Positions 7,028-39,202 of a stretch of DNA of 39,202 nt are shown piece by piece; position 1 is the first letter of the stretch, and the number at the start of each line of letters is the position of its first letter. Under the pieces are notes generated by a model, which was not told the origin of the DNA, did no database searches, and was given only the letters and a program-made list of their open reading frames with translations. A program made the translations under genes and the position numbers. The stretch covers positions 1 through 39,202 of the forward strand of contig CALVIY010000009.1 in NCBI GenBank assembly GCA_944331955.1. Direction: 5' to 3'. Source of the DNA: an uncultured Bacilli bacterium. Its GTDB lineage: Bacteria; Bacillota_I; Bacilli_A; RF39; UBA660.

Positions 7028-8281
7028 CTATTTTATAATAGCTTCCTTACTACCATCTTTTAACTCTATATTAATTAAATCATCTTTCTTTAAATCTTTT
7101 ATACTAGTAATGGCCTTATCATTAAGTTTAACAATACTATAACCTCTTTCTAGAGTTTTTAATGGCGATAAGGTATCTAATTTACTAAGTAATAAAGCAT
7201 ATTTCTGTTTAGTCTTATCTAATACTACTAAAGGATTACTAAATAAAGGTCTTGATTTAATATTATTTAGTTTAACCTTCTCTTTATCAATAATAACTTT
7301 ATAATTCTTAACTAAACTCTCTGTTAAATAATCAAGTTTTTGAATCTTAGCAGAGTATAAATCTAAAGGATTATTTAAAATATAATGCCCCTTAATACTA
7401 TCGAGTCTTTTTTTCTTTAACTCAAGTATTGTTCCCATTGCTTTCCTACTTCTTAAGTTTAACTGATTAATATAGTTTATAACATCAGTTTTATTAGGAA
7501 CGGCAATCTCTGCTGCCCCTGTTGGTGTAGGGGCTCTTAAATCTCCTACAAAGTCTGCAATAGTAAAGTCTATTTCATGACCTACGGCACTGATTATTGG
7601 TATAGGGCATTCAAAAATAGCACGAGCCACTATCTCTTCATTAAAGGCCCATAAATCTTCAATAGAACCTCCACCTCTACCTACTATTAGAACGTCTAAA
7701 TTGTAGTTTTCTGCGCGTTTAATTTGCCTTACAATATCTTCTTTAGCACCTTCTCCTTGTACTAAACTAGGTAAAAGTATTACTTCTGTTAAAGGAAATC
7801 TTCTATTAATAGTAGATATTATATCACGAATAGCAGCCCCTGTTGGTGCAGTTATAACTCCAACACGTTCTGGTATTTTTGGAATAGGTTTTTTGTACCT
7901 ATCATCAAATAATCCTTCACTTGCTAGCTTTTTCTTTAACTGTTCAAATGCTACATAAAGATTACCTACTCCATCTTCCATCATTTCATTAACATAAATC
8001 TGATATCCACCTGTCGCTTCATAAACAGATATTCTTCCAGTTACAAGTATCTTCATTCCATCAACTGGTTCAAATTTAACTTTACTAGCACTACTTGCAA
8101 ACATAACAGCATTAATTCTACTACCTTCGTCTTTAATAGTAAAATAAAAGTGTCCTCTAGTATGAGCCTTAAAATTAGATATTTCTCCTTTAAGATAAAC
8201 TTCTCTTAAATTAACATCATTATCTAATTTATATTTAATATACTTAGTTAACTGACTAACTGTTAAATATTCTTTATTCAT
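7028..8281 (-). CDS. xseA: Exodeoxyribonuclease VII large subunit
   Basis: XseA is the catalytic subunit of exonuclease VII. It begins with an OB-fold (YLTVSQLTKYIKYKL, VYLKGEISNFK, GHFYFTIKD) and continues into the catalytic domain (RVGVITAPTGAAIRDI, GRGGGSIEDLWAFNEE, SAVGHEIDFTIADF, RAPTPTGAAE). It ends with the helical region and GYSIV motif near the C-terminus. At 417 aa it is of normal length. I place the start at the ATG at 8281, with GAGGATAG upstream, rather than the GTG four codons earlier. This start overlaps the nusB stop by eight bases (ATGAATAA), the same coupling geometry as addB-addA. Confidence 0.95.
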   Translation of the reverse strand: MNKEYLTVSQLTKYIKYKLDNDVNLREVYLKGEISNFKAHTRGHFYFTIKDEGSRINAVMFASSASKVKFEPVDGMKILVTGRISVYEATGGYQIYVNEMMEDGVGNLYVAFEQLKKKLASEGLFDDRYKKPIPKIPERVGVITAPTGAAIRDIISTINRRFPLTEVILLPSLVQGEGAKEDIVRQIKRAENYNLDVLIVGRGGGSIEDLWAFNEEIVARAIFECPIPIISAVGHEIDFTIADFVGDLRAPTPTGAAEIAVPNKTDVINYINQLNLRSRKAMGTILELKKKRLDSIKGHYILNNPLDLYSAKIQKLDYLTESLVKNYKVIIDKEKVKLNNIKSRPLFSNPLVVLDKTKQKYALLLSKLDTLSPLKTLERGYSIVKLNDKAITSIKDLKKDDLINIELKDGSKEAIIK

Positions 8282-24480: not shown

Positions 24481-26409
24481 TTAGCTAGCAAGTTCTAGGG
24501 TGAATGGATTTTGTTTAGTTCCATCTCCTCCAGTTATTATGACGTTTTGTTTTAGATTTAGAGATGGACGGACGCCGTACGCGCTCGAAGGATTGTCGTC
24601 GTACGCATAGCCAGAGTTGTACACGTTACGCACGTCAGACGAACTTTCTGGTGTTAAAGTCCAATAAATTGTTGTTAATCCTGTACTAGTACTTCCATCC
24701 TTTACCGCATATCTTTCGAATTGTCCTGCCATTAATTCTCCTAACCTTAGTAATCCTACCTTTGCTGTAGTTGTACTTGACGTTAAAATATTATCCGTAG
24801 TATTTGTATATTTGGCTAATTTATATGAAGTACCACTACCTACTGTTCCTAAATACCATGTAGTACTTTCTTCTATCATATCACTATAACTGCTGTCTAC
24901 ATAACTTGTTAGATATTCTCCATTTAAGAATGTTCCTATAGTATTACTACTTGAAAACGTTGCATTACTTCCAAAGGTACTTGTTACAAAGTTTCCAGAA
25001 CTTTTTAGAGGAGCAGCACTGGTTATCTTAGTTAACCCTGATGTTTCGTGACTTACTATTCGATAGAGATTATTTTCATCATTGCCAAAGCGGATGTATT
25101 CACCACTATATCTACTCGAAAGTAATGTTCCCGAAAGGTCCGTATCATTATCTCCTTCTAAGCGATATGGGTTATCTAATGTTCCATCACCTTCTACAAT
25201 TCGAACGCTAGATTTTAGATTTATTGATGGACGGATGCCGTTCGCGCTCGAAGGAACGTTGTAGTCCGCATTGCCACGGCTGTTTACGCGACGCACGTGA
25301 GACGCACTGTATGGTGTTAAGGTCAACCAATATAAACCATTATTTAAATATCCATTTGTTCCACCATTATTACTAGACTGATACTCATACATATTTAAAA
25401 GTCCCACAGCATCTGTTACTATTGTACCACTATCACTTGGTCTTTGTATGTTTCCAAACCTTGTTGCATCTTCTGTGGCATTCCACTTAGCATCCATTAC
25501 AATGAATTTTTCTGGTTCTCTTAAATTACCTAAGAAGCCATCTATACTTGTATCATTTAACCAGTCTTCCATATAACTTCCTTCAAAAGCTGTCTGATTA
25601 TATGGATTATATGGAATTGCACTTATATTCCACTGTGTTACTAACTTGGTTGTCTTCGCTTCATTATTTACGCTCACCGCTCTCCATAATTTTCCACTAT
25701 ACCAGATATAGTTATTAGGATCTTCTCCTGTTATAAATGTATCTGTTCCATCATCATATTTACTTCCACTATTTAAATTTTCTATAATTACTTTAGATGC
25801 TTCTTCTCCTACTCTATCTTTTCCATAGACATTTACTTGTACTGCAAATGTTAAATTTCCTCCATCTCCTTGAGGATTATAATTTTCATCAACATACATT
25901 CTTAATCTGTAATTATTACTTTCACTACTATTCATACTACTTGTATATAAACTCATCTCTCCTGCTGGTCTTCCTGTAAATGTATTAGATGTTGATTCTT
26001 CATTATATGTCTTTGGTGTCATTAATTGTTCCTCACCATTATCAGTTAACCTAGTTAAATAAAGTTTAATATTAGAACCATCTATTGTTCCATCTCCTAC
26101 TTCTTTAGCACTTATTTCATAATTGATATTTACTTCACCTGTTATTTCACTACTAACTGTAAAGTCAAAGTATTCTCCTTCTTTTAATCTTGTTGTCCCT
26201 GTCGCATCTGTTGTTGGTAGAGCATTTCCTAAAGTGATAGTATTTTCACTTTCTTCATAAGTCATAGTTATTGATCCTGTTGTAATCTTATTAGGAACAT
26301 TCCCTTGCTGACTAAAACTAAATGCCGCATAACTTACTCCTATTATTGCTAAAATCATTATTACTAATATCACTATTATTACAATGTTTTCTTTTTTCTT
26401 TAAATTCAT
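24481..26409 (-). CDS. Surface-exposed DGR target protein with two variable domains, 642 aa
   Basis: A basic head and membrane anchor (NIVIIVILVIMILAIIGVSY, then AAFSFSQQ) lead into a TasA/camelysin-like beta-sandwich (about 30-200, ITTGSITMTYEE). Two tandem, related domains follow (about 205-410 and 425-640). Each has a YIWYSGKLWRAVS or EYIRFGNDENNLYRIVS opening, a WxLTP motif, a variable stretch, an IRPSINLK or VRPSLNLK strand and a GDGTxxNP(Y/F) ending. The variable stretches (about 364-395 and 585-616) are the DGR variable regions. The fold is probably C-type-lectin/FGE-like (DUF6273-type); this is inference. The protein should be displayed outside the cell as a diversified binder. A C7 tract, an attenuator-like hairpin and a 13-mer shared with its paralog lie upstream. 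Confidence 0.85.
   Translation of the reverse strand: MNLKKKENIVIIVILVIMILAIIGVSYAAFSFSQQGNVPNKITTGSITMTYEESENTITLGNALPTTDATGTTRLKEGEYFDFTVSSEITGEVNINYEISAKEVGDGTIDGSNIKLYLTRLTDNGEEQLMTPKTYNEESTSNTFTGRPAGEMSLYTSSMNSSESNNYRLRMYVDENYNPQGDGGNLTFAVQVNVYGKDRVGEEASKVIIENLNSGSKYDDGTDTFITGEDPNNYIWYSGKLWRAVSVNNEAKTTKLVTQWNISAIPYNPYNQTAFEGSYMEDWLNDTSIDGFLGNLREPEKFIVMDAKWNATEDATRFGNIQRPSDSGTIVTDAVGLLNMYEYQSSNNGGTNGYLNNGLYWLTLTPYSASHVRRVNSRGNADYNVPSSANGIRPSINLKSSVRIVEGDGTLDNPYRLEGDNDTDLSGTLLSSRYSGEYIRFGNDENNLYRIVSHETSGLTKITSAAPLKSSGNFVTSTFGSNATFSSSNTIGTFLNGEYLTSYVDSSYSDMIEESTTWYLGTVGSGTSYKLAKYTNTTDNILTSSTTTAKVGLLRLGELMAGQFERYAVKDGSTSTGLTTIYWTLTPESSSDVRNVYNSGYAYDDNPSSAYGVRPSLNLKQNVIITGGDGTKQNPFTLELAS
24562..24654 (-). 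repeat. DGR variable region VR1 (second domain)
   Basis: About 93 bp encoding the stretch from PESSSDVRNV to the GVRPS strand. It is much more GC-rich than the surroundings and shares an invariant codon scaffold with VR2. Variable residues in order are Asp, Asn, Tyr, Asn, Ser, Tyr, Tyr, Asp, Asp, Asn, Tyr: the residues reachable from AAY codons by adenine substitution. Confidence 0.88.
25224..25319 (-). repeat. DGR variable region VR2 (first domain)
   Basis: The counterpart of VR1, encoding PYSASHVRRV through GIRPS. It differs from VR1 at 19 bases, all at codon positions where an adenine in the template explains both states. All scaffold bases between (GTG CGT, GGC, GCG, CCT TCG AGC GCG, GGC, CGT CCA) are identical. 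Confidence 0.88.
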
Positions 26410-26601: not shown

Positions 26602-28176
26602 TCAATCATCATTTACAATTACTTTTATTCTATATACTGTAAATAATGCTGTTCCTAATACTAATATTAAAATTAATCCTATTCCTATATAAGTCATACT
26701 ATTAGTTACTGGATTCTTTATTACTGTTACATCTATTTCATATGAAGTTAGTCCATCACTACTTACTCCTGTTATCTTTGTTATGCCTTCTTTTAATCCT
26801 AAAATCTTACCATTTTCTATTCTTGCAATACTATCATCTTCACTTGTCCATGTTACATTACTTAAATCTATTTCTTCTTCAAAAGCATCATTTATATTTA
26901 TACTCTCTTCACTTTCAATAGTAGCAGCACCTTTATAATTATTTTCAACTGCATCTACTAATATATATGGGTTATTGGCTGTTCCATCACCTTTTAATGT
27001 CTTATTTTCTGTTGTTACATTTATTACTGGTCTTATATTAGAATTAGTATTAGCAGCCTGATTATATAGAGTCCACGAAGATTGCCATAAATCTGCATAG
27101 TTATTATAAAATGTACTAGGTGTCATAGTCCAATAACCATTTGATGAACCCTTATCAGTACCACCATTTAAGTAACCATCTGATACTTTTCCTGATGTTG
27201 CAATAGGTCCCCAACTTGACATTATTACTTCTCCTGATAATACTAATTCATCTGCAGTTATTAGACCTGCTTTTAATCTATAACTTCCTCCATAACTTTC
27301 TGTTGTTGTAGGACATTTTAATGTTGGATCATTATCTTTTATATATTTATTAGCAGCTTGACCAAACCTATCATAACTTGCAAAAAAATTATAATTTCTT
27401 TCATCAAACCCATAGTCTACATCTTTTTTATATCCACTAGTATCATTACAAAATCTACCATTAATTACTAAATCATCATAACTTGTATTTCCTAATGCAT
27501 TGTTATACCATGCATCTACTTCCTCTTTAATTAAAGAACCCATTCCATTATCATAAGTGTAACCTGTGTATTTTGGTTCGTCACTAAGATCATTAAAATC
27601 TGCTTTACCAATAGAATATGATCTTAATTTTTCAATATCTTCTCCTTCTTCTGGACTAGTACCATTATAAATAAGTCTTAAACTTCCATCTCCATTTACT
27701 CTTACTATTCTCCAGTACATCTTATCGCCTTTAGATGCTAATTTTACTTTTCTATAGGAACCAGTTCTGCTATCTCTATTTTTTATTTGATAATAATTAT
27801 CTTCATCAGTATTTACATAATAATCTTCAGTATATTCACCAAACTGAATAATATTATTATTTATATTACCTCGATAATAATAACTGATTCCATCATCATC
27901 TTCCCTAGAATATAAACCTGTAGTTATATAGTTTGGATCACTAACTTCCATTCCTATACTAAGTTCATGATAAAAACCGTTACTAGTATAGTTAAACATA
28001 TGAGGTATTTCTTCTTTTAGTTCATTGTCATTTAATATTTTATTAAGTACATAATTATTATTACCGTTTTCATATAATATGTTACTAGTACTTATTACTG
28101 TTTTATTATCATGATAAAAACTTACTCCTAATACTAATATCATTACTGATAGTAGATATTTCTTAATCTTAGTCAT
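26602..28176 (-). CDS. Surface protein with DUF6273/FGE-like domain and BIG2-like domain, 524 aa
   Basis: The protein begins TKIKKYLLSVMILVLGVSFY, a signal peptide. A large domain, related to the domains of the neighbouring DGR target, shows MYWRIVRVNGDGSLRLIYNG, YWTMTPSTFYNN, NIRPVINVT and GDGTANNPYIL. A bacterial Ig-like (BIG2-type) segment follows (VTWTSEDDSIARIENGKILG; GITKITGVSSDG). A C-terminal membrane helix (SMTYIGIGLILILVLGTALF) and a short basic tail anchor it. The start is set at 28176 from AGAGGTG upstream. The segment matching the DGR variable region lacks the GC-rich scaffold, so it is probably not targeted by this DGR. It may share expression with the gene downstream. Confidence 0.8.
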   Translation of the reverse strand: MTKIKKYLLSVMILVLGVSFYHDNKTVISTSNILYENGNNNYVLNKILNDNELKEEIPHMFNYTSNGFYHELSIGMEVSDPNYITTGLYSREDDDGISYYYRGNINNNIIQFGEYTEDYYVNTDEDNYYQIKNRDSRTGSYRKVKLASKGDKMYWRIVRVNGDGSLRLIYNGTSPEEGEDIEKLRSYSIGKADFNDLSDEPKYTGYTYDNGMGSLIKEEVDAWYNNALGNTSYDDLVINGRFCNDTSGYKKDVDYGFDERNYNFFASYDRFGQAANKYIKDNDPTLKCPTTTESYGGSYRLKAGLITADELVLSGEVIMSSWGPIATSGKVSDGYLNGGTDKGSSNGYWTMTPSTFYNNYADLWQSSWTLYNQAANTNSNIRPVINVTTENKTLKGDGTANNPYILVDAVENNYKGAATIESEESININDAFEEEIDLSNVTWTSEDDSIARIENGKILGLKEGITKITGVSSDGLTSYEIDVTVIKNPVTNSMTYIGIGLILILVLGTALFTVYRIKVIVNDD

Positions 28177-28261
28177 ATATTTTATTTCACCTCTTACCTT
28201 ATCTTTATAGTTTAAGTTTAACACATATTCTCGTATTTTAAAAGAGGATAAAATCTTTTCA

Positions 28262-33939: not shown

Positions 33940-34953
33940 TCACTCCTCATCTAAATCCATAAAAATATTTAATTCATCTTCTGTTGGAAAATCTTTTAAT
34001 AAATTATTAGGGAGTTCATTAAATATTTTATATTCACTAACTCCTAGTGATTTATTAATATATTTTAAAGTATAATCTACTATTTGGTTATTTTTACTAG
34101 AGCACAAAATTATACCAATAGAAGGATTATCATTATCATCTTTAACTTGTTCGTCTAACGCAGTTAAATAAAAACCCATTTTACTACCAAATTCAGGTTT
34201 AAACTTACCTACTTTAAGTTCTACTGCCACATAACATTTAAGTTTAATATGGTAAAATAGTAAATCTATATAGAAATCTTCATCACCAACTGTTATTTTA
34301 TATTGATTAGATACAAAGGAAAAACCACTACCTAATTCCAATAAAACATTTTTTAAGCGTTCTAACATTTTATTTTCTAATTCTCTTTCCTTATAATCTT
34401 CAGTTAATTCTATTAAATCAAAAACATAAGGTTCTTTCATAATGTTATTAGCAAGATCACTATTTTCTTTTAAAGTAACCTTGAAATTATTGTGTTTTTT
34501 ATTTTCTACCTGTCTTTTATATAAATCAGTATCTATCTGATATACTAAAACATTCTTTGACCAACCTTCTTCTAAGCATTTTTCCATATACCATTTACGA
34601 ATATTTTTATCTTTTACTTTTTGCATTAAAGTAATATTGTGCTTCCAAGGTAATTTTGCACAGTTTAAGCAGTGCAAAAATTCTTCATCATCTTTATATT
34701 CTTCGTAAAAAGCTTTCATATAATTTAAATTACGAGTGGAAAAACCTTTTAAAGTTGGAAAAGTATTTTTAAATTCAAAAGAGACATTTTCTACAAATTT
34801 ATTTCCCCAAGAAAAGTTCTCACTGATTATTTTTCCTATTCTATAATAAAGATTAACTAAATTAGTATTAGCATTTACCATAATTTCTAACTGAGTATCT
34901 TTAACATCTTTTTTAATACCATCACATATACTTTTAAATGATTTATCTAGCAT
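33940..34953 (-). CDS. PDDEXK nuclease domain protein, YhcG/DUF1016 family
   Basis: The N-terminal DUF1016 helical domain is clear (LVNLYYRIGKIISENFSWG, FPTLKGFSTRNLNYMKAFYE, LPWKHNITLMQKV). The C-terminal nuclease domain has FYIDLLFYHIKLKCYVAVEL with KVGKFKPEFGSKM after it, supplying the D...ExK residues, and SIGIILCSSKNN. At 337 aa it appears intact. Family members are scattered and often seen near mobile or defence genes. Here it lies between uppP and the ZIP transporter with operon-like spacing and a GGAGGTAG site, so it may be a recent insertion into an envelope gene cluster. Confidence 0.88.
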   Translation of the reverse strand: MLDKSFKSICDGIKKDVKDTQLEIMVNANTNLVNLYYRIGKIISENFSWGNKFVENVSFEFKNTFPTLKGFSTRNLNYMKAFYEEYKDDEEFLHCLNCAKLPWKHNITLMQKVKDKNIRKWYMEKCLEEGWSKNVLVYQIDTDLYKRQVENKKHNNFKVTLKENSDLANNIMKEPYVFDLIELTEDYKERELENKMLERLKNVLLELGSGFSFVSNQYKITVGDEDFYIDLLFYHIKLKCYVAVELKVGKFKPEFGSKMGFYLTALDEQVKDDNDNPSIGIILCSSKNNQIVDYTLKYINKSLGVSEYKIFNELPNNLLKDFPTEDELNIFMDLDEE

Positions 34954-36010: not shown

Positions 36011-36829
36011 CTACATTAATGCAGTTATTTGTTTCTTAGATAGTCCTGTCGCTTTCATTATATCTTTAACGGATAAGTTCATTTTGAGAAGATTCTTTGC
36101 AATAGACTTTTTCTCATTATTAGCACCTTCTTTTCTACCATCACTTCTAGCAGAGTTTACTTCTTTTCTGTGTACAATCTCTGCATCATAATACATTCCA
36201 AATTCATCATCTAAGCCTAATTGTTTTAATTTTTCCATAATTATTTTTCCCTCCTTTAAATCTCCTACTATTCTTTCCATTTCTTCATAAGACTCTGCTG
36301 TTAACATAGATAAATATGTTTCATATTTATTGGTTCCATCATAAACTATTCCTTTATACTTCCCTAAATCTATGGTAATTATTCTTACATCTTTTAAATA
36401 AGCTTTAGATTTATAATCTTCTAGTTTATAATCTTTTCCATTCCATTTCTTTACATTAGCTTTTTTAATCTTATTATTTAAATTTATCTGCGTAACATAT
36501 CTATGATAATACTGTTCTCCTTGTAAATAACCATTACCAGCGATTCTTAAAGCATATCTAATATTCTTTATCATAGTATGAGCATGAACATCTTGATTAA
36601 ATTCTAAATTAACAAGTCTATTTTTATTAAGAAATATTGTATCTGCTCTATAATCTTTACCAATATTCCCTGTATTAAGTTCATTATCTATTGCAGTATA
36701 ATGTTTTAAATCAATACCTGTTGCAAATTTAATAAAGTCTTCATAAAACCATTTATAATGATCATCTTTAACTAAAGCTTTAGCAGTTGTGTCTGACATT
36801 AATGATATAAATCTAGGTACTTTGTTCAT
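36011..36829 (-). CDS. PD-(D/E)XK nuclease family transposase (Rpn/YhgA-like)
   Basis: The protein has the Rpn-type layout. The N-terminus (FISLMSDTTAKALVKDDHYK, where a typical family start reads as a failing-state/target motif) is followed by the nuclease core RADTIFLNKNRLVNLEFNQD, which supplies D, E and Q of the PD-(D/E)XK site. Next come helices with MIKNIRYALRIAGNGYLQGE. The C-terminus has a helix-turn-helix-like segment (NLLKMNLSVKDIMKATGLSK). The start is set at 36829 from GGAGGG eight bases upstream. Length 272 aa. It is bounded by its own promoter and two terminators and lies between uppP and the DGR, marking a mobile boundary. Confidence 0.8.
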   Translation of the reverse strand: MNKVPRFISLMSDTTAKALVKDDHYKWFYEDFIKFATGIDLKHYTAIDNELNTGNIGKDYRADTIFLNKNRLVNLEFNQDVHAHTMIKNIRYALRIAGNGYLQGEQYYHRYVTQINLNNKIKKANVKKWNGKDYKLEDYKSKAYLKDVRIITIDLGKYKGIVYDGTNKYETYLSMLTAESYEEMERIVGDLKEGKIIMEKLKQLGLDDEFGMYYDAEIVHRKEVNSARSDGRKEGANNEKKSIAKNLLKMNLSVKDIMKATGLSKKQITALM

Positions 36830-36885
36830 AAAGTCCCTCCTCTCTGCAATAGATATAACATAAGTAAAAATATATTGCAAAAAGG

Positions 36886-37087: not shown

Positions 37088-38038
37088 TTATTTTTCATAT
37101 TTGAAACAATATTTTATATTTTTCCTTAGTAATCTTCTTCTAGTCTTACTAACAATTCTTCTAGATATTTTATTATTCTTTACTTTATAATTAATACCTA
37201 AAAAGGTAAAGCCTTCAGTACTCTTATATATTTTAGTTTTATTATTAAACTCTAATAGATAATCTCTATTAACAATAGATTCTAATATTCTTAAAATTTT
37301 TTTTAATCTTTCTTTACTACTATCTAAGATAATACCATCATCCATATAATGGATATAGTATTTACAGCCTAACTCTTCTTTAATAAAGTGATCTAAGTCA
37401 TTAAGATAGAATACTGCAAGGAACTGAGAAGTATAGTTACCTATAGGTAGACCAGTATTTTTCTTATAAAAAGTATCCATTCCTAACTTACTAATAGTAT
37501 TATTAATATAATCATGATTAGTAGTATCTAAGATATCTTTAATTAATAATAAATCTTTATTACTTAAATATTTACTTAATTTATTAAGCAATACTTTATG
37601 ATTAATATTATAGAAATACTTACTAAAGTCAAATTTAAGGACATAGAAAGTACAGGATTTATTTTTAATATTAACAAGATACTTATCTAATAATTTTCTA
37701 GCATAACTAGTTCCTCTACCTACTCTAGTTGCACAATTACTATCTATTAAGTACTTATCTAAAGGTAATAATATTTTCTTACAGATAACATGATTTACTA
37801 TTTTATCTTCTAAAGTACTACTCATAATAAGTCTTTTCTTTTTCTCTATTATTGTAAAGATATGATAATTACTATAAGTATAATTACCACTATTAATCTT
37901 ATCTACTAATATATTACAATTGCTATAATAATTCTTTTCAAAGAGATATAACTTCTTTTTATTTCTAATAGACTTTCTTATCTTTAAATAAGCATCTTCT
38001 ATATCACTTAACTCTACTTTCACTTTTAATCCATCCAT
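37088..38038 (-). CDS. DGR reverse transcriptase
   Basis: A 316-residue reverse transcriptase of the DGR class, which copies the template repeat RNA with adenine errors for transfer into variable regions. Visible in order: LYLFEKNYYSNCNILVDKI and KKRLIMSSTLEDKIVNHVIC (motifs 1-2), YVLKFDFSKYFYNINHKVLL (motif A, catalytic Asp), GLPIGNYTSQFLAVFYLNDL (DGR hallmark IGxxTSQ), YYIHYMDDGIIL (YMDD-type motif C) and GFTFLGINYKV (motif E region). No maturase or endonuclease domain is present, ruling out a group II intron. Its start overlaps the avd gene by 35 bases; a GTG five codons later with an upstream GGATGGAT is an alternative start. Confidence 0.93.
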   Translation of the reverse strand: MDGLKVKVELSDIEDAYLKIRKSIRNKKKLYLFEKNYYSNCNILVDKINSGNYTYSNYHIFTIIEKKKRLIMSSTLEDKIVNHVICKKILLPLDKYLIDSNCATRVGRGTSYARKLLDKYLVNIKNKSCTFYVLKFDFSKYFYNINHKVLLNKLSKYLSNKDLLLIKDILDTTNHDYINNTISKLGMDTFYKKNTGLPIGNYTSQFLAVFYLNDLDHFIKEELGCKYYIHYMDDGIILDSSKERLKKILRILESIVNRDYLLEFNNKTKIYKSTEGFTFLGINYKVKNNKISRRIVSKTRRRLLRKNIKYCFKYEK

Positions 38039-38348
38039 ATATTAATTTAGTAATTGTAATATATTTTTTACTTATAGATATATATTTATCTTTAGATATT
38101 TCTTTATAAGTATAAAGTTTATAATAGTAATAATCTAATAGTTTAACTTCTACTAACATCTTTCTTTGAATATAGATTCTTTTAGGTCTTTCTAGGGTAT
38201 TAGTATAATATAAGTAATAAAGTAATTTATAATTGGAATCTATTATATTATTCTTAAGTGTTTTATATTTATTATTAATATTAAGAATTATTTTATCAGT
38301 AATAATATCTATTTCTTTAATTTTATTTTCTAAAACAAAGTTACTCAT
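38004..38348 (-). CDS. avd: Avd-like DGR accessory protein, 114 aa
   Basis: A small basic, all-helical protein directly upstream of and overlapping the reverse transcriptase. Avd forms a pentameric four-helix-bundle barrel that binds the RT and the template RNA. The helix breaks and the ending fit: ERPKRIYIQRKMLVEVKLLD, then YKEISKDKYISISKKYITI and the terminal LIYGWIKSE, which resembles the GWIKS ending I know from Avd proteins. Many Lys/Tyr residues suit nucleic-acid binding. It overlaps the preceding ORF by eight bases. Confidence 0.75.
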   Translation of the reverse strand: MSNFVLENKIKEIDIITDKIILNINNKYKTLKNNIIDSNYKLLYYLYYTNTLERPKRIYIQRKMLVEVKLLDYYYYKLYTYKEISKDKYISISKKYITITKLIYGWIKSESRVK

Positions 38349-38679
38349 AAAATTTCTCCATCTTAGAGATAATCTCTTCTATATTATCTAAATATAAACA
38401 ATTCTTTAAGTTAATAGATAACTTATCTATTCTAAAGACTAACTTACCATACTCTAGATACTTAGAATATTTATTATCTTTAAAGGTGACTACATCATTA
38501 TAGAAATAGTTGATATGACATTTATTAAGTAAATTTATTAATTTGCTCATTGAGTTCCTTTCTATATAGAACGTTTCTTTATAGGGTTTATCTAATAAGT
38601 AACTAATAATATAACTATCATTTTTAGTTGTATAATAGATAACTCCTTTACATATGAAATAAACTAAACTGTTATCCAT
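38341..38679 (-). CDS. Small DGR accessory protein, possibly MutS-like (MSL) type, 112 aa
   Basis: This small alpha/beta protein is the first gene after the template repeat and is coupled to avd by an eight-base overlap. It begins with beta-rich VYFICKGVIYYTTKNDSYII and has a middle segment MSKLINLLNKCHINYFYNDV followed by FKDNKYSKYLEYGK. MutS domain I-like small proteins are known DGR accessories, and the DNKYSKYLEYG stretch is loosely reminiscent, but the match is too weak to assert. A GATAGGAGAG site precedes the ATG. Conserved position in an RT-avd operon is the main functional clue. Confidence 0.6.
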   Translation of the reverse strand: MDNSLVYFICKGVIYYTTKNDSYIISYLLDKPYKETFYIERNSMSKLINLLNKCHINYFYNDVVTFKDNKYSKYLEYGKLVFRIDKLSINLKNCLYLDNIEEIISKMEKFYE

Positions 38680-38715
38680 ATAAATAACACTCTCCTATCT
38701 TTTCCTTAACATAAC

Positions 38716-38768
38716 AAAAAAAAAAAAAATCAAGCATATTTGCAAATTTATGTAGTTTACATAAATTT
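38716..38768 (-). terminator. Hairpin plus long T-run before the accessory operon
   Basis: On the minus strand the 11-bp stem at 38768-38744 is followed, after a short GCAAATATGC element, by about 14 Ts (38729-38716). It may end the template RNA or attenuate entry into the accessory-RT genes. Confidence 0.5.
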
Positions 38769-38771
38769 ACT

Positions 38772-38800
38772 ATTATACTTGACATAAACTATTGGCCTAA
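38772..38800 (-). promoter_or_regulatory. Candidate promoter for the DGR accessory-RT operon
   Basis: On the minus strand TATAAT (38777-38772) is preceded at 17 bp by TTAGGC, a weak -35. It would start a leader containing the 38744-38768 hairpin. Confidence 0.4.
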
Positions 38801-38969
38801 CCTTGCCTTTAGTTTTATAAGGTTGGATAGTGTATAAATAGTTTCATAAATATTTATTACAATTCTATTATCTATCTAGTCTTTAGTGTTAATAACACAA
38901 GGAAATTACCTGTTCCTTTTATCTATTCTATATAAGTTATACCTATAATGCTAGGTTTAAAAGGAAATG

Positions 38970-39058
38970 CCGAGCGCCATTCGAATTGCTAGAAGGCGAA
39001 TTGTTGTTCGCATTACCATTGTTGTTGACGTACCGAACGTTTGACGAAGATTCTGGTA
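38970..39058 (-). repeat. DGR template repeat (TR)
   Basis: This non-coding 89-bp stretch reads, in the frame of the variable regions, as PESSSNVRYVNNNGNANNN then SPSSNSNGAR. Ten of 21 consecutive codons are AAC or AAT, the hallmark of DGR templates. Its Asn positions coincide with the residues that differ between VR1 and VR2 (Asn6, 11, 12, 13, 15, 17, 18, 19 and 26 of the aligned block). It has no start codon, lies between a target-gene end and the RT operon, and similarity to the VRs ends abruptly at the Arg codon. Silent scaffold differences and one extra codon show that it is not the direct parent of VR1/VR2. Confidence 0.85.
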
Positions 39059-39103
39059 AATCCCTACTATAATATATTTTAATCTAATTATAGCCTTTTT
39101 GAT

Positions 39104-39141
39104 TAGTCACGAAAGAGAAATACAGTTCTCTTTCGTGACTA
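39104..39141. repeat. Perfect 16-bp hairpin between target gene and TR
   Basis: TAGTCACGAAAGAGAA and its exact complement flank a 6-nt loop (39120-39125). The hairpin begins immediately after the target stop codon and has no U-run on either strand. Hairpin/cruciform elements just downstream of variable regions are known to stimulate DGR retrohoming, which fits this position. Confidence 0.8.
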
Positions 39142-39202
39142 TTAACTTCCTAATCGTATTTCAAATGGTGAGTTTAAGGTTCCATCACCATTTACAATTT
39201 GT
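39142..39202 (-). CDS. C-terminal end of a further DGR target protein (partial)
   Basis: The last 19 codons of a gene that continues beyond the window: QIVNGDGTLNSPFEIRLGS followed by tandem stops TAA TAG. It matches the post-VR ending of the two-VR protein (RIVEGDGTLDNPYRLEG; TGGDGTKQNPFTLELAS), so its variable region should lie just outside the window edge. Order on the minus strand (target, hairpin, TR, accessory, avd, RT) is the classic DGR layout, making this the likely cis target. Confidence 0.8.
   Translation of the reverse strand, partial: QIVNGDGTLNSPFEIRLGS

Follow-up and report, generated by a model that had tools for sequence, protein, structure and literature searches.

A chromosomal DGR with a MutS domain I-like accessory protein in Candidatus Onthousia

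A genuine chromosomal diversity-generating retroelement (DGR), a system of a known kind, is found in a genome of the Candidatus Onthousia lineage, where such systems have been recently active, and the known accessory protein MSL (MutS domain I-like) is present in it in a compact three-gene form. We propose that the template repeat (TR) RNA of this DGR is copied with errors at adenines into target genes encoding two DUF6273 domains, with MSL assisting the reverse transcriptase (RT); in our estimate the probability of this reading as a whole is about 93%. The locus occupies positions 37,088–39,202 of the minus strand, at one end of the window, the whole 39,202-nt stretch of DNA that was analyzed. 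The window covers contig C9 of a 1.5-Mb MAG (94% complete, contamination 2.7%) from end to end. A sequence-only reading had already pointed to a chromosomal DGR in an AT-rich member of the Bacillota, which is confirmed here: sequence comparison identifies the relatives of the genome as Ca. Onthousia and other gut Bacilli, and the locus has housekeeping surroundings.

Organization of the locus

On the minus strand the elements follow in the order target-gene end, hairpin, TR, non-coding spacer with a terminator-like hairpin, 112-aa ORF, Avd and RT (Table 1), and comparison of related loci shows that both the order and the sequence of the cassette are conserved in sister species. The sequence-only reading described a complete DGR core. 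All of the pieces it named—the RT, the Avd-like ORF, the 112-aa ORF, the TR and the end of a target gene—were located with their coordinates and translations, but completeness does not extend to the cis target, which is cut to its last 19 codons and has its variable repeats (VRs) out of view, the remainder lying beyond the contig end. Contigs C46 and C9 both terminate in one repeated target sequence, and therefore no neighboring contig can be assigned to C9.

Table 1. Positions of the DGR elements and of the remote target in the window
Feature	Position	Strand	Basis
Remote target gene; 642-aa product with two DUF6273 domains and a hydrophobic N-terminus	24481–26409	-	Pfam DUF6273 E 3e-10; VR analysis
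VR2 of remote target, cognate of C48-type TR	24568–24651	-	VR/TR comparison
VR1 of remote target, cognate of C48-type TR, not of the window TR	25231–25314	-	VR/TR comparison
DGR reverse transcriptase, 316 aa	37088–38038	-	Pfam, PDB and PHROG matches; tree
Avd (accessory variability determinant)	38004–38348	-	PHROG 'Avd protein of DGR' E 2e-6; Pfam bAvd weak
MSL (MutS domain I-like) accessory protein, 112 aa	38341–38679	-	Iterated HMM, AF2 fold match, relatives' Pfam scores
Non-coding spacer of about 290 bp, 3' of TR, nearly invariant, probable part of TR RNA	38680–38969	-	Alignment, consensus fold
Terminator-like hairpin and T-run between TR RNA and protein genes	38716–38781	-	Consensus fold
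TR core of 84 bp with 25 A's, rich in AAC/AAT codons	38970–39053	-	Alignment with the TRs and VRs of relatives
Hairpin, candidate homing hairpin/cruciform, directly after target stop, upstream of TR	39104–39141	-	Inverted repeat, covariation
3' end of cis target gene, ending ...QIVNGDGTLNSPFEIRLGS and stop	39142–39202	-	Translation; 3' end shared with C46 and C48

The three protein genes are tightly coupled. The RT translation contains GLPIGNYTSQ and YMDDG, the motifs by which it had been recognized, and its gene overlaps avd by 35 bp. The Avd-like protein ends in GWIKSESRVK, so that the small RT-overlapping protein ending in GWIKSE is borne out, and a profile search agrees with its identity through the PHROG Avd family, though the match to Pfam bAvd (17 bits) falls below the cut-off. 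The 112-aa ORF in turn overlaps avd by 8 bp, as expected for the third small coupled ORF of the earlier reading. The AAY-rich non-coding repeat noticed there corresponds to the TR core, which is conserved among relatives and unique in its own genome.

The homology between TR and VR ends sharply on both sides, beyond which the TR reads CATTTCCTTTTAAACC and the VR CCATCNATAAATCTAAAATC. In the consensus fold the 3' flank of the TR, TTCCTTTTA, pairs with the downstream TAAAAGGAA, and this pairing may explain the end of the homology. In two relatives the terminator-like hairpin is replaced at the same site by a shorter one, GTCAA..TTGAC, again followed by a T-run; the recurrence of a different hairpin and T-run at one position supports its reading as a terminator. 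The TR RNA is thus probably a discrete transcript that ends before the protein genes. A simple promoter and terminator scan performed at chance level and did not call the hairpin at 38716–38781.

The second hairpin, that after the target stop, displays covariation in its stem: among 10 sequences, three of the eight pairs are changed on both sides with 100% of cells remaining paired, and the covariation score is matched by none of 500 shuffles. Such conservation of pairing would be expected of a counterpart of the homing hairpin of the Bordetella phage BPP-1, which lies by the mtd stop codon and has a 4-nt GRNA loop (PMC3240598). Unlike the latter, the Onthousia hairpin is located about 100 bp from VR2, has a longer stem and loop, and is without a 4-nt GRNA loop.

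Adenine-specific variation, targets and decay

In sister species, where the cis targets are visible as adjacent double-DUF6273 genes, each target carries two VRs about 640 bp apart, located about 100 and 740 bp upstream of the stop codon. In one sister genome (G014), 13 of the 26 A's of the TR are changed in one VR and 10 in the other, alongside 0 and 1 non-A mismatches, respectively; in another (G002), the changed A's number 11 and 18 of 29, again alongside 0 and 1 non-A mismatches. Pooling seven clean TR/VR pairs gives 88 changes at 192 A's against 11 at 380 non-A bases (p 8e-37, odds ratio 28), the changed A's becoming T, G and C. When the G014 genome was searched in full with an A-masked pattern, only the TR and its two VRs were returned, and the reversed control gave nothing. 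A-specific differences are present wherever a VR is visible.

A remote target within the window carries one VR in each of its DUF6273 domains. Four VRs compared with the C48 TR show 0–1 mismatch outside A positions in a 38-bp core, a figure that holds after removal of two mismatches per row added by the pattern starting with TC where the TR has CT. Between VR1 of the remote target and its C48 paralogue, 17 of the 84 sites differ, 12 of them at A's of the TR (p 3e-4). The flanks of the same pair show one difference in the preceding 200 bp and none in the 71 bp after position 84. The lineage is therefore recently active: TR and VR differ only at A's in the sisters, and paralogous targets are alike around the VR and different inside it. 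For the lineage, the earlier suggestion of recent activity holds.

DUF6273 is found in all 35 Onthousia genomes, with 1 to 25 matches each, and only a minority of the paralogues carry VRs. We rejected the possibility that every one of the approximately 14 double-DUF6273 paralogues currently serves as a target: a close match to a TR is seen in just two, the window gene and a gene on C48, the paralogues on C55, C12, C24 and C5 correspond to distant TR types alone, and the majority of the rest to none. The domain has been reported to resemble the C-type lectin fold and to bear VRs in Faecalibacterium-type phage DGRs (PMC11792537, PMC10743442), where the VR lies within DUF6273 as it does here; unlike these, the Onthousia systems are bacterial and have two DUF6273 domains per protein with a VR in each. 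The AF2 model of the DUF6273 target reached a pLDDT of 38, and a PDB profile search with the target gave no match. The gene adjoining the remote target (26602–28224) encodes a large exported-type protein with a Big_2-like domain. Its GYWTMTP...RPVINV motif resembles the type-B target described below, and no VR of the type-B TR is detectable in it.

Neither BLAST nor the A-masked pattern found a VR of the window TR in the 94%-complete assembly, the only match being the TR itself. This is the expected outcome for a contig that breaks off within the cis target, and the window copy is presumed to be active. The missing VR would also be explained if the window DGR were a dying copy, with intact genes but a lost cis target or a TR serving no gene, while other copies work; the decay seen at other loci of the genome—a decayed TR without cassette on C46, a truncated TR on C48, and an RT with an intron and a frameshift on C17—fits such a course. 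We consider it unlikely, given that the three ORFs are intact, the TR is conserved, and the contig ends within the target, with the VRs due beyond the break, at the same distances from the stop as in the sisters.

Besides the window copy, which we presume to be active, the genome and its relatives contain DGR loci in various states. A second RT on C26 is 95% identical to the window RT and could be contamination, which amounts to 2.7% in this single MAG. Contig C17 carries a type-B DGR with its own A-biased TR. Type-B DGRs in the genus (L029, L030 and C17 in L043) have their own 94-aa relative of MSL and an Avd, and their TR/VR pairs show no non-A and 10–14 A mismatches over 60 bp. At its end, C46 (L044) has the target end and the decayed TR followed directly by an Rpn-like gene, and is a locus stripped of the MSL-avd-RT cassette. 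A gene of the same Rpn/PDDEXK transposase-like type (PHROG transposase E 1e-8) lies downstream of the window RT at 36011–36880, and may have a role in moving or deleting cassettes. A PDDEXK nuclease gene of the YhcG/DUF1016 type (Pfam) is located in the window at 33940–34953.

Insertions are also found in the loci. The TRs of L041 (C48, about 8203–8243) and L090 (G034) are broken by an element with the end TTATAGGACAAAAT; in G034 the broken TR has a tyrosine recombinase next to it, and the TR spacer is separated from MSL by three tyrosine recombinases in tandem. A group II intron of about 1.9 kb (Rfam RF02005 and RF00029, with a 438-aa IEP) resides within the YMD^D catalytic codon of DGR RTs at L043 (G000:C17), L152 (G021:C20) and L153 (G015:C1), and its 3' ends are also found at L154 (G003:C11) and L155 (G013:C120). 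At least two RT lineages contain the intron; beyond it, the second exon remains in frame with the RT in G021 and is frameshifted in C17.

The MutS-like accessory protein

The product of the 112-aa ORF is MSL, a homologue of MutS domain I. The ORF itself has no match in a direct Pfam scan, and a PDB profile search with it returned only noise. A profile started with its relatives and extended by iteration through related loci, however, reaches domain I of the window's own MutS at E 8e-14, and relatives of the protein score 41, 33, 30 and 29 bits against Pfam MutS_I, above the cut-off of 20.6. The profile check suggested for this ORF therefore failed for the protein itself and succeeded for its relatives. 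Its AF2 model (pLDDT 86) matches the PDB accordingly: the 43 best rows are all MutS domain I, with Z up to 7.5 over 69 residues at an rmsd of 2.9, and the next family reaches Z 3.6. Since the Foldseek E-values of the model alone are weak (0.07), the identification relies on the iterated profile, the relatives' scores and the fold jointly. MSL (Pfam MutS_I, PF01624) is already known as a DGR accessory, as mentioned in PMC10053308 with reference to Wu et al. 2018. The Onthousia system shares this accessory with the MSL-containing DGRs cited there and differs from them in the occurrence of MSL together with Avd and, in relatives, in the fusion of MSL to the RT.

MSL directly precedes Avd, in the order MSL-Avd-RT, in 30 of the 52 related loci, and occurs without a recognized Avd in two. 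The separate ORF before avd, thought uncommon in the earlier reading, is thus part of the usual order in the lineage. In eight of the 52, which belong to other gut Bacilli (L113, L116, L118, L121, L125, L126, L127 and L128), MSL forms the C-terminal part of the RT and Avd is separate. These fusions and the shared operon suggest that MSL belongs to the RT complex.

The Phe-x-Glu motif with which MutS reads mismatches is missing from the window MSL, which has GVIYY in place of the GDFYE of the window's own MutS; Onthousia MSLs in general read GVMIY or GVIYY at this site. Among distant MSL relatives, most keep FY and few the Glu. Mismatch sensing by the Onthousia MSL is thus improbable. Because the motif is gone, binding of the template/cDNA duplex or of the RT is favored as its role, to which we would give even odds. 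More speculatively, and with somewhat less than even confidence, the MutS-derived domain, whether separate or fused, might have become a core component of the polymerase of these DGRs in this lineage and, in Onthousia, have exchanged the reading of mismatches for another function, either in homing or in mutagenic reverse transcription. The fusions of RT and MSL and the missing mismatch motif are candidate novelties, although the fusions, like the pairing of MSL with Avd, may already be covered by the survey of Wu et al. 2018.

Homology to MutS domain I raises the alternative that MSL still senses mismatches, or that it competes with the host MutS and shields the new VR heteroduplex from mismatch repair. 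F-Y-E is in fact retained in the MSL of some relatives (L144, L146 and L131), and a mutS deletion served to preserve DGR substitutions in one study in E. coli (PMC12875486). The same study, however, found no effect of MutS on an insertion reporter, and with GDFYE replaced in Onthousia and the Glu absent in most relatives we regard this alternative as rather improbable.

The proposed mechanism would run as follows. The TR region would be transcribed as a structured non-coding RNA, probably ending at the hairpin and T-run, as its conserved structure indicates. The RT with Avd would copy the TR with errors at A's, a step shown by the TR/VR differences in sister species, with its biochemistry extrapolated from BPP-1, and the cDNA would replace both VRs of the adjacent surface-type target, one per DUF6273 domain, with the hairpin after the stop as the likely recognition element. 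TRs of the same family would also have rewritten the remote paralogous target. MSL would work with the RT as part of its complex, as its fusion to the RT in eight relatives suggests.

The reverse transcriptase and known DGR systems

The RT was recovered by profile searches with 73 bits against Pfam RVT_1 and E 2e-73 against the PHROG reverse transcriptases. Its top sequence match in the PDB is 8ub7 (E 5e-19), an entry titled Reverse transcriptase that we take to be a DGR RT complex, and the best group II maturase follows at 1e-9. In a tree of 21 RTs, all of the DGR or group II type, the window RT belongs to 16 DGR RTs separated from five YADD group II-type RTs with support 100/100, rather than clustering with the latter. 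The DGR side includes the RT of phage Lagaffe, which adjoins an annotated Avd, and that of the archaeal virus ANMV-1, which adjoins an annotated DGR target.

The relatedness of phage DGR RTs to the window RT could indicate a prophage-borne element. This is very improbable: the window otherwise consists mostly of housekeeping chromosome, including mutS, alaS, murB/murG and xseA, and the nearest RTs in the phage collection and in IMG/VR show 34% and 39% identity, against 80–95% in the chromosomes of sister species. That the RT derives from a group II intron, a retron or another defense RT can be practically dismissed, as the match to the NCBIfam group II RT model (E 8e-26) reaches only 91 bits, far under the model cut-off of 300, the tree of DGR and group II-type RTs groups the RT with DGR RTs, A-specific TR/VR pairs exist in the same lineage, and no Rfam group II intron RNA domain is matched anywhere in the window.

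The chromosomal DGR supported by these data resembles several described systems in part. With that of BPP-1 (mtd/avd/TR/brt) it shares the RT, Avd and TR, the A-specific VR and a hairpin just after the target stop; it differs in being chromosomal, in the order target-TR-MSL-avd-RT, in the additional MSL and in having two VRs per target. As in Thiohalocapsa PB-PSB1 (PMC10907252), several complete and degenerate DGR loci occur per genome, targets are diversified in trans, one target may carry several VRs, and mobile elements are found in the loci; the phylum and targets are different. Remote paralogous targets and an orphan VR fitting another TR type are also seen in Treponema denticola (PMC4891356), where the accessory is HRDC, unlike the MSL and Avd of Onthousia.

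Onthousia has DGR-type RTs in nearly every sequenced species, together with paralogous double-domain targets, in genomes of small size (0.9–1.7 Mb). The lineage shows DGR loci that have been duplicated, stripped and broken by other mobile elements. Its loci with separate MSL, with fused MSL and with no MSL form a natural series for probing the function of a MutS-like helper in DGRs.
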